From Thermococcus gammatolerans EJ3 (GTDB lineage Archaea; Methanobacteriota_B; Thermococci; Thermococcales; Thermococcaceae), in assembly GCF_000022365.1 (NCBI RefSeq), contig NC_012804.1, forward strand, positions 496,001-560,000: a stretch of DNA of 64,000 bases, written 5' to 3'. The notes beneath the pieces are model-generated. The model was not told where the DNA came from, did no database searches, and saw only the letters and a list, made by a program, of their open reading frames with translations. A program made the position numbers and the translations under genes. Position 1 is the first letter of the stretch. Every line of letters begins with the position of its first letter. Below, piece after piece: positions 42,253 to 47,951 of the stretch.

Positions 42253-44877
42253 ATGGGGGAGGATAGGATCCAGTGGGCGAGAAGGGAATATTCCGATGAG
42301 GAGATATTCTCGATCCTCAGTGAGCCGGTTAGGGAGTGGTTTAGGCGGAAGTTTGGAAGTTTCACGCCCCCCCAGCGCTACGCGGTTATGGAGATTCATA
42401 AGGGGGAGAACGTGTTAATTTCATCACCGACGGGTTCCGGAAAAACGCTTTCCGCTTTCCTCTCGGCCATAAACGAGCTCATCCTCCTCGGAAAGGAGGG
42501 AAAGCTTGAGGATAAGATCTACGTCCTCTACGTTTCCCCGTTGCGAGCGCTAAACAACGACATAAAGCGCAACTTGGAGGGACCTTTGGCTGAAATCAAG
42601 GAAGTGGCAAAGGAGCTCGGCTACGACCTGCCAGAAATCCGCGTCGGCATAAGGACGAGCGACACCTCGAGCTACGAGAAGAGCAAGATGGTGAAGAAAC
42701 CGCCCCACATCCTCATAACTACTCCCGAGAGCCTCGCGATAGCTCTAAACGCTCCCAAGTTCCGGGAGAGGCTGAAGACGGTTAAATATCTCATCATAGA
42801 CGAGGTTCACGCTCTGGCTGAGAACAAGCGCGGTTCCCACTTGGCTTTGAGCGTTGAGAGACTTCAAGAGATGGCCGAAGAGAAGTTCGTGAGAATCGGC
42901 CTGAGTGCGACGATACACCCGCTTGAGGAGATAGCGAAGTTCGTCTTCGGCTTCGATGACGATGGAAAGCCGAGACCTGGTCTTATTGTTGACGTCAGCT
43001 TCGCCAAGCAGACCGAGATTAGGGTCGAGAGCGTCGTCGAGGACTTAATCTACACTCCAGCCGGGGAGCTGAGCGAGGCCCTATACAGGAGGCTGGCCGA
43101 GCTGATCAGGGAGCACAGGACGACCCTAATTTTCACCAACACGAGGAGCGGTGCCGAGAGGGTCGCTTTCAACCTCAAGAAGCGCTACCCCGAGTTCGAG
43201 GGGCTCATTGAGGCGCACCATTCGAGTTTGTCGCGCGAGGTTAGGCTGGACGTTGAGGAGAAGCTGAAGAGAGGCGAGCTAAAAGCTGTTGTGACGAGTA
43301 CATCTCTGGAGCTCGGAATAGACATCGGAACGATTGATTTGGTGGTTCTAATCGGCTCGCCGAAGAGCGTGAACCGTGCCCTGCAGAGAATTGGGCGAGC
43401 AGGCCACAGGCTTCACGAGGTCAGCAAGGGGGTTATTTTGGCCCTCGACAGGGACGACTTGGTCGAGGTTACCGTTTTGGCGCACAACGCGAGGAACAGA
43501 AGACTCGACCGCGTTAGGATTCCGAAGAACCCACTCGACGTATTAGCCCAGCACCTCCTCGGGATGGCCCTAAACAGGGTCTGGGAGGTTGATGAGGCTT
43601 ATCGCGTCGTCAAACGAGCTTATCCCTTCAAGGATTTGTCTTTCGAGGACTTCATGAGCGTTTTGAGGTATTTGGCTGGAGAATACGCCGGTTTGGAGGA
43701 GCGGAAAGTCTACGCCAAGATATGGCTGGAGGACGGGCGCTTTGGACGGCGAGGAAAGATGACGCGGGCGATTTACTACATGAACGTCGGCACGATTCCA
43801 GATGAGGCCAAAATCCGCGTTTACACGATGGACAAAAAGCTAATCGGGACAGTTGAGGAGGAGTTCGCCGAGAGGCTGATGCCCGGCGATGTCTTCGTCT
43901 TAGCTGGAAGAACCTACGAGTTCGTCAAGAGCAGGGGCAACAAGCTCTACGTCATCCCGCGTGAGGGTGCCAAGCCGACTATTCCGGCGTGGTTCTCGGA
44001 GATGCTCCCTCTCAGCTTCGATTTAGCACTCGACATCCAGCGCTTCAGGAGGGAGGTTAAGGGCCTTCTTAAGAGGAAGGACGCGGTTAGAAGGCTGATG
44101 AGGAAGTACGGAATAGACGAAAAGGCCTCGCGCGCCATAATCGCCTACTTCCGCGAGCAGGCGAGATATTCAATAATTCCGGACGACGAGACGGTTCTTG
44201 TTGAGTTCGTTCCAGGGGAAAAGAGAAACCGCTACTTCTTCCACACGCTCATAGGGAGGCGCGCGAACGACGCTTTAAGCAGGGCCTTCGCCTACCTCGT
44301 GAGCAAGAGAAAGAACTGCAACGTTGGAATAGCGATAAACGACAACGGCTTTGCTTTACTCCTTCCGCCAGAGGTTGAGCTGAGCGAGGAGGAAGTGATG
44401 GAGCTTTTCAAGGTTGAGGACCTGAGGGAGACGCTGAAGAGGGCCCTCGACAACACCGAGCTACTGAAGAGGCGCTTCAGGCACGTGGCAAACAGGGGAT
44501 TGCTAATCCTCAGGCGCTACGTCGGAAGGAGTAAGAGGCTCGGCAGGCAACAGGTCATGGCGGTCTCGCTCCTCAAGGTGCTCAAGGAGAACTACCCGGA
44601 CTTCCCGCTCCTGAAGGAGGTCTACCGGGAGATTATGGAGGACAAGATGGACGTGGAAAGCGCTGAACTGTTCCTGAGCTGGGTTCGCGAGGGGAAAATA
44701 AGGGTGGTCTTCCAGATCCACAGCGTCCCAAGTCCCTTCGCCTTTAATCTCGAAGCGATAGGCTCGAGCGACGTGGTTCTTATGGAGGACAGGAGGGAGC
44801 TGATCAAACAGCTTCACAGAAAAATAATGGCAATGATAAAGGAAACGACATCAGAAGACGTTGAGCTTGTCGTCTAG
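42253..44877 (+). CDS. Lhr-type DEAD/DEAH-box DNA helicase
   Basis: An 874-residue superfamily 2 helicase of the Lhr group. Visible motifs are the Q motif region [12 protein letters not shown], Walker [14 protein letters not shown] (about residues 62-74), [33 protein letters not shown] (DEVH, about 184-198), [34 protein letters not shown] and QRIGRAGHR. About 370 C-terminal residues form the Lhr winged-helix/core extension. It unwinds DNA forks or hybrids in repair. The ATG at 42253 follows GGAGGGTG, with TATA near 42221-42232; longer frames upstream have no support. Confidence 0.92.
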
Positions 44878-46068
44878 GATCATCTTCTGAATCTTTGTTA
44901 CGTCTGCGAGCCAGGCGTCTGCTATCTCGTATGCAGGCTTCTGGAGGACGTCTATGGAGTAGCCCTTCTTCGGGATTATCTGTATGCTCGCCACGAGGGG
45001 TTCATCGATGGGCTTGCCTATCTGGCTGAGTATCCTGACGTAGACCTCCTGCACGCCTTCGACCTGCTCGGCGATGTCGTTGGCTATGAGCATCGAAAGG
45101 AGGTTGTAGATCTTTCCGACGTGGGAAACGGGGTTCTTTCCGGCTGCTGCCTCCATGCTCATGTGCCTGTTTGGGGTTATGAGCCCGTTGACGCGGTTTC
45201 CTCTGCCTACGGAACCGTCATCGCCCGCCTCGGCGCTGGTTCCGGTAACGGTGATGTAGTAAATTCCGTTCTTCGGATCGTCGGCGGTGTTCACGAATAT
45301 CTTGGTCGGCCTCTGGGTGTGCTCCTCAACTACTCCCTTTGCCGCCTCGTAGATCTCCTCTTTCACGGCCATATAGTCGTCCGGGTTTGAGACCTCGCTG
45401 TCAACTATTGCAGCGGCAATGGTCAGATCGATCTCGTCGCCCTTCCTGAGGCCCATGACCTTGATGTCCTCTCCAACCGCTGGGCACTTCTTTTTGAACT
45501 CCTCGCTGTTAAGGAGCTTTTCAGTCTCGAGGACTATCCTCTCGGTCTCGCTGAGCGGGGCGTAGCCGACACCGAAGGAAGTGTCGTTCGCGAGCGGAAT
45601 CGGGTTCTCCTTGGCCTTGTTGAAAACTCCAACCAGATCAACGCTTCCCTGTCCGATGCGGGAATCAATTACCACGTGGTTCTCGATGTCGAGGTGTCTA
45701 ACTGCTTTCTTGAGGTAGTCCTTCGCGGCCTTTATCGCGACTTGGTGAACCGGAAACTCCTCTCTATCGACGAGCTCCACAGCTCTTCCAGAGAGAAGGA
45801 TGTAAATTGGCTTTATGACCTCACCGCCCCCGAACTGCGGGTAGGCTCTTCCTCCAACAACCTCTACCTGATCCGTGTTGTGGTGGAGAATTATACCATA
45901 GCGCTTGAGATACTCCCTGCTCAAAGCCCTGCTTACCGCCTCGGCGATGCCGTCGGCTATGCTGTCAGGGTGGCCTATTCCCTTTCTCTCGACGAGTTCA
46001 ACCTCCTGCATTTCAACCGGAGTTCTAACGAGTTCCTCAACGACTATGTTCCTGACTTTCTCGACCAT
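44851..46068 (-). CDS. mat: Archaeal S-adenosylmethionine synthetase
   Basis: A 405-residue archaeal-type methionine adenosyltransferase, unrelated in detail to the bacterial enzyme. Typical stretches are [20 protein letters not shown] (about residues 23-42), [59 protein letters not shown] (about 277-296) and [18 protein letters not shown]. It supplies SAM for the many methyltransferases and, via decarboxylated SAM, for polyamine synthesis. The ATG at 46068 follows GGTGGTGA. BRE/TATA (CCGAAAATTATATAAAAG) is near 46114-46131. The 3' end overlaps the helicase end by 27 bp. Confidence 0.95.
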
Positions 46069-46107: not shown

Positions 46108-46207
46108 AGGGAACTTTTATATAATTTTCGGCATGAAGAACCTGGAATGGTATTCCCGGCAGTTATAACCGCGAAAACCTTAAAATTTTCTCCGAAGAAT
46201 TTTCTTT

Positions 46208-46358
46208 GACGGTCCCGCCCGGTTGGCCCGCCGGACGGAGTGGGCTGGGCCTTCGATGATGTCCCGTGGACGATGCCGGGCGGACAGGGCTTGGCCTCCG
46301 GACCGCCGGAGGGTGGCGTTGCCTTCAATGATGGCGGGGGATCAGCCAAGCCCACATC
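46208..46358 (+). ncRNA. Two-hairpin H/ACA guide RNA
   Basis: A GC-rich stretch without an ORF folds into two consecutive H/ACA units. Unit 1: basal stem CCGCCCGG (46215-46222) with CCGGGCGG (46276-46283), then ACA (46284-46286). Unit 2: basal stem GGGCTTGGC (46287-46295) with GCCAAGCCC (46345-46353), then ACA (46354-46356). Each upper stem can form a K-turn with tandem G-A pairs and a 3-nt bulge; unit 2: stem 46303-46308/46332-46337, GA 46309-46310 with GA 46330-46331, bulge AAT. Promoter: CGAAAACCTTAAAATTT (46172-46188), about 25 nt upstream. It guides rRNA pseudouridylation; targets not fixed. Confidence 0.85.
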
Positions 46359-47823
46359 AACCCTGCTCCTTTATCTTGAGCGCCTCCAGGAACTTCTCGG
46401 TTATCGCCTCCTCCGCCAGCCTCAGAAGGGAATTCTTGTCCTTTGCAAGCTTGAAGAGGCCCAGGGGAATCCTCGCGCCCCCCATCGTCGCGTGGCCGCC
46501 CCCGCTACCTATCTCCCCAAAGGCTTCCTTCATGACGGCCCCTATGTTCACCCTCACGTCCCTTGTCCGGGCTGACATCTCTATGTAGTCGTCCACTATT
46601 CCGAAGACAAGAACCGTGCTTATGCCCTCGAGCCTGAGGAGGAAGTCCGCCGATTCGGCCAGCGCATCCCTGTTCCTTATAAAGCCGACGTTCGAGATGA
46701 CGACGTTCTTGTAGGACTTCCTGTTGAGTATTGCCCTCGCCAGTATCTCCGCAGTTTCGGTTGAGATGTCCGGGTGCTCTATCCTCTCCAGGAGCTCGTG
46801 GTTAACCTTTCCGGCCAGGAACTCGATGGCCTTTAGGTCGACCTGGCTGAGCTGGGAGAACTTCTTTGTGTCCGTGTAGATGCCATAGAAGAGTGCAGTA
46901 GCGAGGGTCTCGGAGAGGGGTATGTTGAGTGCCTTTATGTACTCGGTGAGTATGGATGCCGAGGCCTTAACGTCCTCCCTGATGTCCACAAAGGCGTCGC
47001 TTGGCAGAAGTTCGTGGAGGTGCTGGAAGATCTGATGATGGTCTATGAGGATCTGCACCTTTTCCCGGTCCTCTGGCTCGAGAATCGTCAGGTTTCCGTT
47101 CGGCTGGGTGTCAACTATTGCTATCGCACTGTGCTTTCGTATCTCGTAAGACCCTCTAGAAACACGCCTCAGGTTTATTCCGAGTAAGTTCACGAAGGCC
47201 TGATTTTCATGGTGGGTGATCTCCCCTCCGTAGGCTATCGTTGTTTTCAGACCGACGTTCTGGGCTATCAGGGACAGCGCAACAGCTGAAGAGATTGCAT
47301 CTGGATCCGGGTTGTTGTGGGTGAGTATCAGCAGGGAGTCCGTTTTTTCCTTTATTTCCTTGAGCTTCTTTAGGAGCATGAGGGCGTTCTTCTTCTCGCC
47401 GAGCTGGAAGAGCGTTCTGAGGAAGGCCTCTGTTATGGCCTTCTGGGGGTAGATGCCGTAGTCTATCTTGACCTCCTTCTCGAATTCCTCCAGGATTATG
47501 TCCTCCATCGTTTCCTTGGGCATGTCATCTGGCAGAAGGGCGACTATGGGAACCTCCTTGTTGTTGGTTCTTATAACGTAGATGGCCTTCTTTACCGCCT
47601 CGAGGTTTCTGGTGGTTATCACGACGACGTTGGCCCTGTCAACGCCGGCCTTCAGAAGGGTCGCTGTGTACGAAAAATCCCCCTGAACAACGTTGAAACC
47701 GCTCTCCTCGAGGGATTTCGCGCGGAGCTCGTCCTTTTCCACTATTGTTATTTCAAACTCTCCCTTGAGTGCTTCCGCGATCTGCCTGCCTATGCTCCCC
47801 CCACCGAGGATCAGGATGCGCAT
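46357..47823 (-). CDS. TrkA-N/DHH-DHHA1 phosphoesterase (possible c-di-AMP or oligonucleotide phosphodiesterase)
   Basis: A 488-residue two-domain protein. Residues 1-140 are a TrkA-N (RCK-like) Rossmann domain: MRILILGGGSIGRQIAEALK. Residues about 165-490 are a DHH-DHHA1 phosphoesterase with THNNPDPDAISSAVALSLIA, AIVDTQP, LIDHHQIFQH (DHH), YGIYTDTKKFS and the DHHA1 GSGGGHATMGGAR. The combination is known from archaea and suggests control of K+ or c-di-AMP signalling, though nucleotide specificity is inferred. The ATG at 47823 is five bases after GGTGA. Its stop adjoins the end of the H/ACA RNA. Confidence 0.9.
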   Translation of the reverse strand: MRILILGGGSIGRQIAEALKGEFEITIVEKDELRAKSLEESGFNVVQGDFSYTATLLKAGVDRANVVVITTRNLEAVKKAIYVIRTNNKEVPIVALLPDDMPKETMEDIILEEFEKEVKIDYGIYPQKAITEAFLRTLFQLGEKKNALMLLKKLKEIKEKTDSLLILTHNNPDPDAISSAVALSLIAQNVGLKTTIAYGGEITHHENQAFVNLLGINLRRVSRGSYEIRKHSAIAIVDTQPNGNLTILEPEDREKVQILIDHHQIFQHLHELLPSDAFVDIREDVKASASILTEYIKALNIPLSETLATALFYGIYTDTKKFSQLSQVDLKAIEFLAGKVNHELLERIEHPDISTETAEILARAILNRKSYKNVVISNVGFIRNRDALAESADFLLRLEGISTVLVFGIVDDYIEMSARTRDVRVNIGAVMKEAFGEIGSGGGHATMGGARIPLGLFKLAKDKNSLLRLAEEAITEKFLEALKIKEQG

Positions 47824-47951
47824 GATCATCACCTATGAGCAACAACGTTTAAATAGATACGTTCCCATAGATTGGGAGGGATGCACCGCCCGTATTATCT
47901 TGGTTGGGGATATATATAGCTGTCGCCCATAAACAATCAGATGGTGAGATT

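Follow-up and report, generated by a model that had tools for sequence, protein, structure and literature searches.

A stretch of 64,000 nt from Thermococcus gammatolerans EJ3 (hereafter the window) almost certainly encodes on its plus strand, at 46208-46356, a two-motif archaeal box H/ACA guide sRNA orthologous to HgcE (Pab105); that is, not a new RNA, but the Thermococcus copy of a catalogued family and an ordinary housekeeping guide. A scan of the whole window against Rfam matched RF00060 (HgcE, Pab105) above its gathering threshold (86.9 bits versus 50; E = 4e-17), which places the RNA in the family by covariance-model score, and both motifs are present with the specificities of Pa105.1 and Pa105.2. 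The genome holds a single HgcE copy, and RF00060 exceeds its cut-off in 72 of 94 Thermococcales genomes; our own two-unit model (R1) has full-length matches above 88 bits in those same genomes and scores 138 bits in the window, which is part of its training set. The Rfam match, the covariation and the match to rRNA targets each lie well beyond chance.

The 5′ end of the gene was inferred from the distance between TATA box and start, and the 3′ end was set at the second ACA box (Table 1). As the first 38 positions of the RF00060 model are unpaired, leaving no pairs for unit 1, the Rfam match begins in the middle of that unit and overshoots the ACA box. The model is shifted about 35 nt too far in the 3′ direction, omits unit 1's 5′ half and hides this unit, so automatic annotation of HgcE in Thermococcus will be wrong; the boundaries drawn in an initial annotation, made from the letters alone, are better than those of Rfam.

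Table 1. Features of the HgcE locus, in window positions.
Feature	Position	Strand	Basis or remark
S-adenosylmethionine (SAM) synthetase (MAT) gene	44851-46068	-	PF01941, 603 bits; divergent neighbour
BRE/TATA CGAAAACCTTAAAATT of the guide RNA gene	about 46172-46187	+	sequence; block conserved across loci
HgcE/Pab105 H/ACA sRNA gene (predicted)	46208-46356	+	RF00060, 86.9 bits; R1 span 46213-46356
RF00060 match	46248-46373	+	starts inside unit 1; its last 17 nt lie beyond the ACA box, in the DHH gene
Unit 1 (Pa105.1-like)	46215-46286	+	stem, guides, K-turn and ACA from sequence and comparison
Unit 1 basal stem	46215-46223 with 46275-46283	+	CCGCCCGGU with GCCGGGCGG; 8 Watson-Crick pairs and U-G; then ACA 46284-46286
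Unit 1 guides	46226-46229; 46269-46274	+	5′ GCCC; 3′ GACGAU
Unit 1 K-turn	46255-46259; 46238-46239	+	bulge GAU 46255-46257, then GA 46258-46259; opposite GA
Unit 2 (Pa105.2-like)	46287-46356	+	stem, guides, K-turn and ACA from sequence and comparison
Unit 2 basal stem	46287-46295 with 46345-46353	+	GGGCUUGGC with GCCAAGCCC; 9 pairs; then ACA 46354-46356
Unit 2 guides	46296-46301; 46339-46344	+	5′ CUCCGG; 3′ GGAUCA
Unit 2 K-turn	46327-46331; 46309-46310	+	bulge AAU 46327-46329, then GA 46330-46331; opposite GA
TrkA_N + DHH + DHHA1 protein gene	46357-47832	-	convergent neighbour
DHH stop codon	46357-46359	-	begins directly after the last ACA

The initial annotation had described two consecutive units with basal stems of 8-9 bp ending at ACA (46284 and 46354) and K-turns with tandem GA and a 3-nt bulge (GAT in unit 1 and AAT in unit 2); the stems can be read directly from the sequence, and both K-turns are found as described. 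The geometry is that of H/ACA RNAs: the basal stem directly before the ACA (ANA) box is 9 bp long in both units (7-9 bp expected), in the register that pairs with rRNA the pocket-closing pair of each unit lies 15 nt from ACA (14-16 nt expected; in unit 1 the spacing can also be read as 16 nt), and the K-turn stands 9-11 layers above the pocket depending on register (about 10 expected for a K-turn or K-loop). In unit 1, the upper stem has a C-C mismatch and, compared with most relatives, is longer by one nucleotide per side, so that its exact register is uncertain between 10 and 11 layers. Folding energy gives z = -3.3 for unit 2, -1.7 for unit 1 and -1.65 for the whole stretch; as the stretch is GC-rich, free energy alone is modest evidence. 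Folded separately, the units show the two-unit form, which the minimum-energy fold of the whole stretch does not, and both pockets are partly closed in the minimum-energy fold of the free RNA, as is common without protein.

The structure is supported by comparison across Thermococcales. We fetched and aligned 71 loci, 40 of which were aligned over both units, and the pairs of the basal and GA stems were named from the window's own sequence before being scored in these 40 relatives. Standard pairs fill 92.3% of pair cells, and shifting the partners by 1-3 columns lowers this to 30-50%; two-sided changes occur at 19 of 27 pairs, and the covariation test counts 118 cells versus 37 in shuffles. 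The observed paired percentage, two-sided changes and covariation score were reached by none of 500 shuffles. In unit 2, for example, UUGG/CCAA becomes CCGG/CCGG, and in unit 1 CGCCC/GGGCG is replaced by CACCC/GGGTG, CGTCC/GGACG or CGCTC/GAGCG. The 3′-strand TGA of the K-turn is invariant in both units (40 of 40 sequences). A lack of compensatory conservation in the basal stems, which the initial annotation had named as the outcome that would speak against a guide RNA, is excluded by these two-sided changes.

Both pockets are complementary to an rRNA uridine, as in H/ACA guides. Searched against the organism's own rRNAs with 15-nt spacing, the unit 1 pocket finds a single site in 16S and 23S rRNA, 23S U2558 (AGUCGUC-U-C-GGGC, 6+4 bp); of the shuffled pockets, 0.7% have a site of this kind anywhere in the two rRNAs. 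The best fit of the unit 2 pocket is 23S U1385 (GGAUCC-U-G-CCGGGAG, 5+5 bp), equalled by 2% of shuffled pockets; the target form proposed earlier, UGAUC(CC)-U-N-(U)CCGGAG, is close to this site, although not exact. In 14 genomes, and then in 7 more, the two 23S targets and the flanks that pair with the guides do not differ. To convert positions we used the 23S rRNA of genome G004, which we take to be P. abyssi. PMC6138745 equates the T. kodakarensis positions 2589, 2592 and 2607 with P. abyssi U2585, U2588 and U2603, and the organism's own 23S rRNA has uridines at 2589, 2592 and 2607. An offset of 26 in the G004 23S rRNA, taken from these anchors, places U2558 at P. abyssi 2554 and U1385 at P. 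abyssi 1377. The latter is presumably the true target of Pa105.2, and U1385 is the predicted target of unit 2. By this conversion, U2558 is the counterpart of the published and tested Pa105.1 target U2554: Pa105.1-L2554 is among the experimentally productive pairs in P. abyssi, where U2554 is modified and Pab105.1 was assayed for RNP formation and modification (PMC4652768). Unit 2 has a further match at 16S U974 that includes two wobble pairs and so resembles Pa105.2-S995, a non-productive (false) pair whose weak 5′ duplex has two wobbles (PMC4652768).

It could be argued that unit 2 alone is a working guide and that unit 1 either serves as a processing hairpin or is no more than a relic, given that RF00060 models the unit 1 region without pairs and that its upper stem has a mismatch. 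This is very unlikely: 95% of the cells of the unit 1 basal stem are paired, 5 of its 8 pairs have changed on both sides, the GA stem shows many such changes, the 3′ guide GACGAU is nearly invariant among the 40 sequences, and the predicted target of unit 1 is the published one.

The BRE/TATA claimed 25 nt upstream of the RNA is present in the sequence, and the block (CGAAA..CTTAAA) is kept on the plus strand in the alignment of 71 loci. In T. kodakarensis, seven H/ACA RNAs are transcribed (PMC4247193). Many other loci have a T-rich ACA-TTTTTAA tail after the RNA; the window is without such a tail. Outside the Pyrococcus-like genus, SAM synthetase is divergent from the RNA gene in nearly all loci, whereas the DHH gene adjoins it in only 7 of 71, a small clade, so that the contact between stop codon and ACA box, correctly noted before, is a local accident. 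That the gap would otherwise be called empty is true for protein-gene annotation only. A second alternative is that the region is no guide at all: it could be a 5′ leader or cis-regulatory element whose K-turn binds L7Ae, or it could regulate the DHH mRNA from the 3′ side as an antisense RNA. The region does abut the DHH stop codon, and some K-turn leaders may be cis-acting (PMC4247193); however, the RNA persists in the many loci that lack the DHH neighbour, and conservation extends to its ACA boxes, pockets and targets, which leaves this reading barely credible. That the locus consists of functionless GC-rich palindromes arisen by chance between two genes, as the modest z-score of the whole-stretch fold might suggest, is refuted by the Rfam match (with its E-value) and covariation, and the promoter and position are conserved as well. 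The plus-strand H/ACA guide proposed initially thus stands on the RF00060 match, the compensatory changes, the promoter on the same strand and the pockets that fit rRNA uridines.

Family membership, structure (by covariation), promoter and pairing are established here, and the HgcE RNA would function as follows. Its own BRE/TATA would drive plus-strand transcription, and the RNA would form two hairpins of stem, pocket and stem, with ACA at the end of each. By analogy with the family, each K-turn would be bound by L7Ae, and each pocket and ACA by Cbf5-Nop10-Gar1. Unit 1 would then pair around U2558 and unit 2, as predicted, around U1385, and the unpaired uridine would probably be isomerised to pseudouridine at both positions in this organism.

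HgcE seems to have been lost in some Thermococcales. Neither RF00060 nor R1, even with laxer filters, has a full-length match in four genomes listed as at least 99% complete (G015, G034, G069 and G078), and the nameable weak matches in HgcE-less genomes are other H/ACA RNAs (HgcF and HgcG). The site next to SAM synthetase is a short gap in G034, unrelated sequence in G069 and holds remnants in G078 and G015, and in a fifth genome (G059) it carries a decayed copy of 53 bits (L088-L092 for the five genomes). These differing states suggest several separate losses. The 23S target sites are unchanged where HgcE is absent or decayed, and the losses suggest that the two modifications are dispensable. 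A search of HgcE-less genomes for a replacement guide with unit 1 specificity gave about as many matches as the reversed control pattern, and among the screened matches one only (G069) had TGA at the right distance. If confirmed, the HgcE-less genomes would be natural knock-outs in which to test the need for two rRNA pseudouridines.

An operator-like palindrome lies at window positions 46148-46166, around GTATTCCCGGCAGTTATAA; L136-L153, L155-L157, L162-L165 and L173-L177 are related loci. All genomes inspected, whether or not they carry HgcE, have the palindrome ATAACYNNNRGTTAT upstream of SAM synthetase, in degenerate form in some (for example, G006 and G009) and as a half-degenerate form, ATTCCNGNCAGTTAT, in the window's genus. 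Exact copies of ATAACYNNNRGTTAT occur 1 to 5 times per genome in 11 other genomes, and the window's own genome has no exact site. The second recurrent place is at a gene for a protein with HTH_3 and two CBS domains, where the palindrome overlaps the start codon or lies a few bases away from it (8 genomes, 6 more and 5 records, some possibly from the same genomes). In six loci (L155, L156, L157, L163, L164 and L165) this HTH-CBS gene directly follows HgcF (Pab35), and the palindrome separates the two; the window's own genome also has HgcF (L154), but no HTH-CBS gene turned up at distances of up to about 2-3 kb. In other proteins, CBS domains are binding sites for adenosyl ligands, which makes it plausible that the HTH-CBS protein is a candidate autoregulated, SAM-responsive regulator of SAM synthetase; literature searches found nothing on such a regulator. 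The shared divergent region with its operator, and HgcF directly upstream of the HTH-CBS gene, raise the possibility that a SAM- or adenylate-sensing regulator co-regulates SAM synthesis and rRNA pseudouridylation guides, which we consider improbable. Since genomes without HgcE retain the palindrome, its role is most likely confined to SAM synthetase.

A second H/ACA RNA in the window, Pab91 (RF02795; 55052-55108, plus strand), scores 89.3 bits against a gathering threshold of 71. It is likewise an archaeal H/ACA guide, but has a single motif, a K-loop and another target. HgcG (Pab40, RF00064) and HgcF (Pab35, RF00058) are, like the RNA described here, H/ACA RNAs of Thermococcales with several motifs and share its architecture; however, the window RNA cross-matches them below threshold (27.6 bits for HgcG, gathering 77; 14.2 bits for HgcF, gathering 70), and HgcF has a separate locus of its own in the genome. 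With HgcE/Pab105 (RF00060) the window RNA has in common two H/ACA motifs, their pockets and predicted targets, and a score over the gathering cut-off; it differs in one additional nucleotide on each side of the junction between upper stem and pocket in unit 1, in the SAM synthetase neighbour, which is absent from Pyrococcus-like loci, and in true ends that are offset from the Rfam match.
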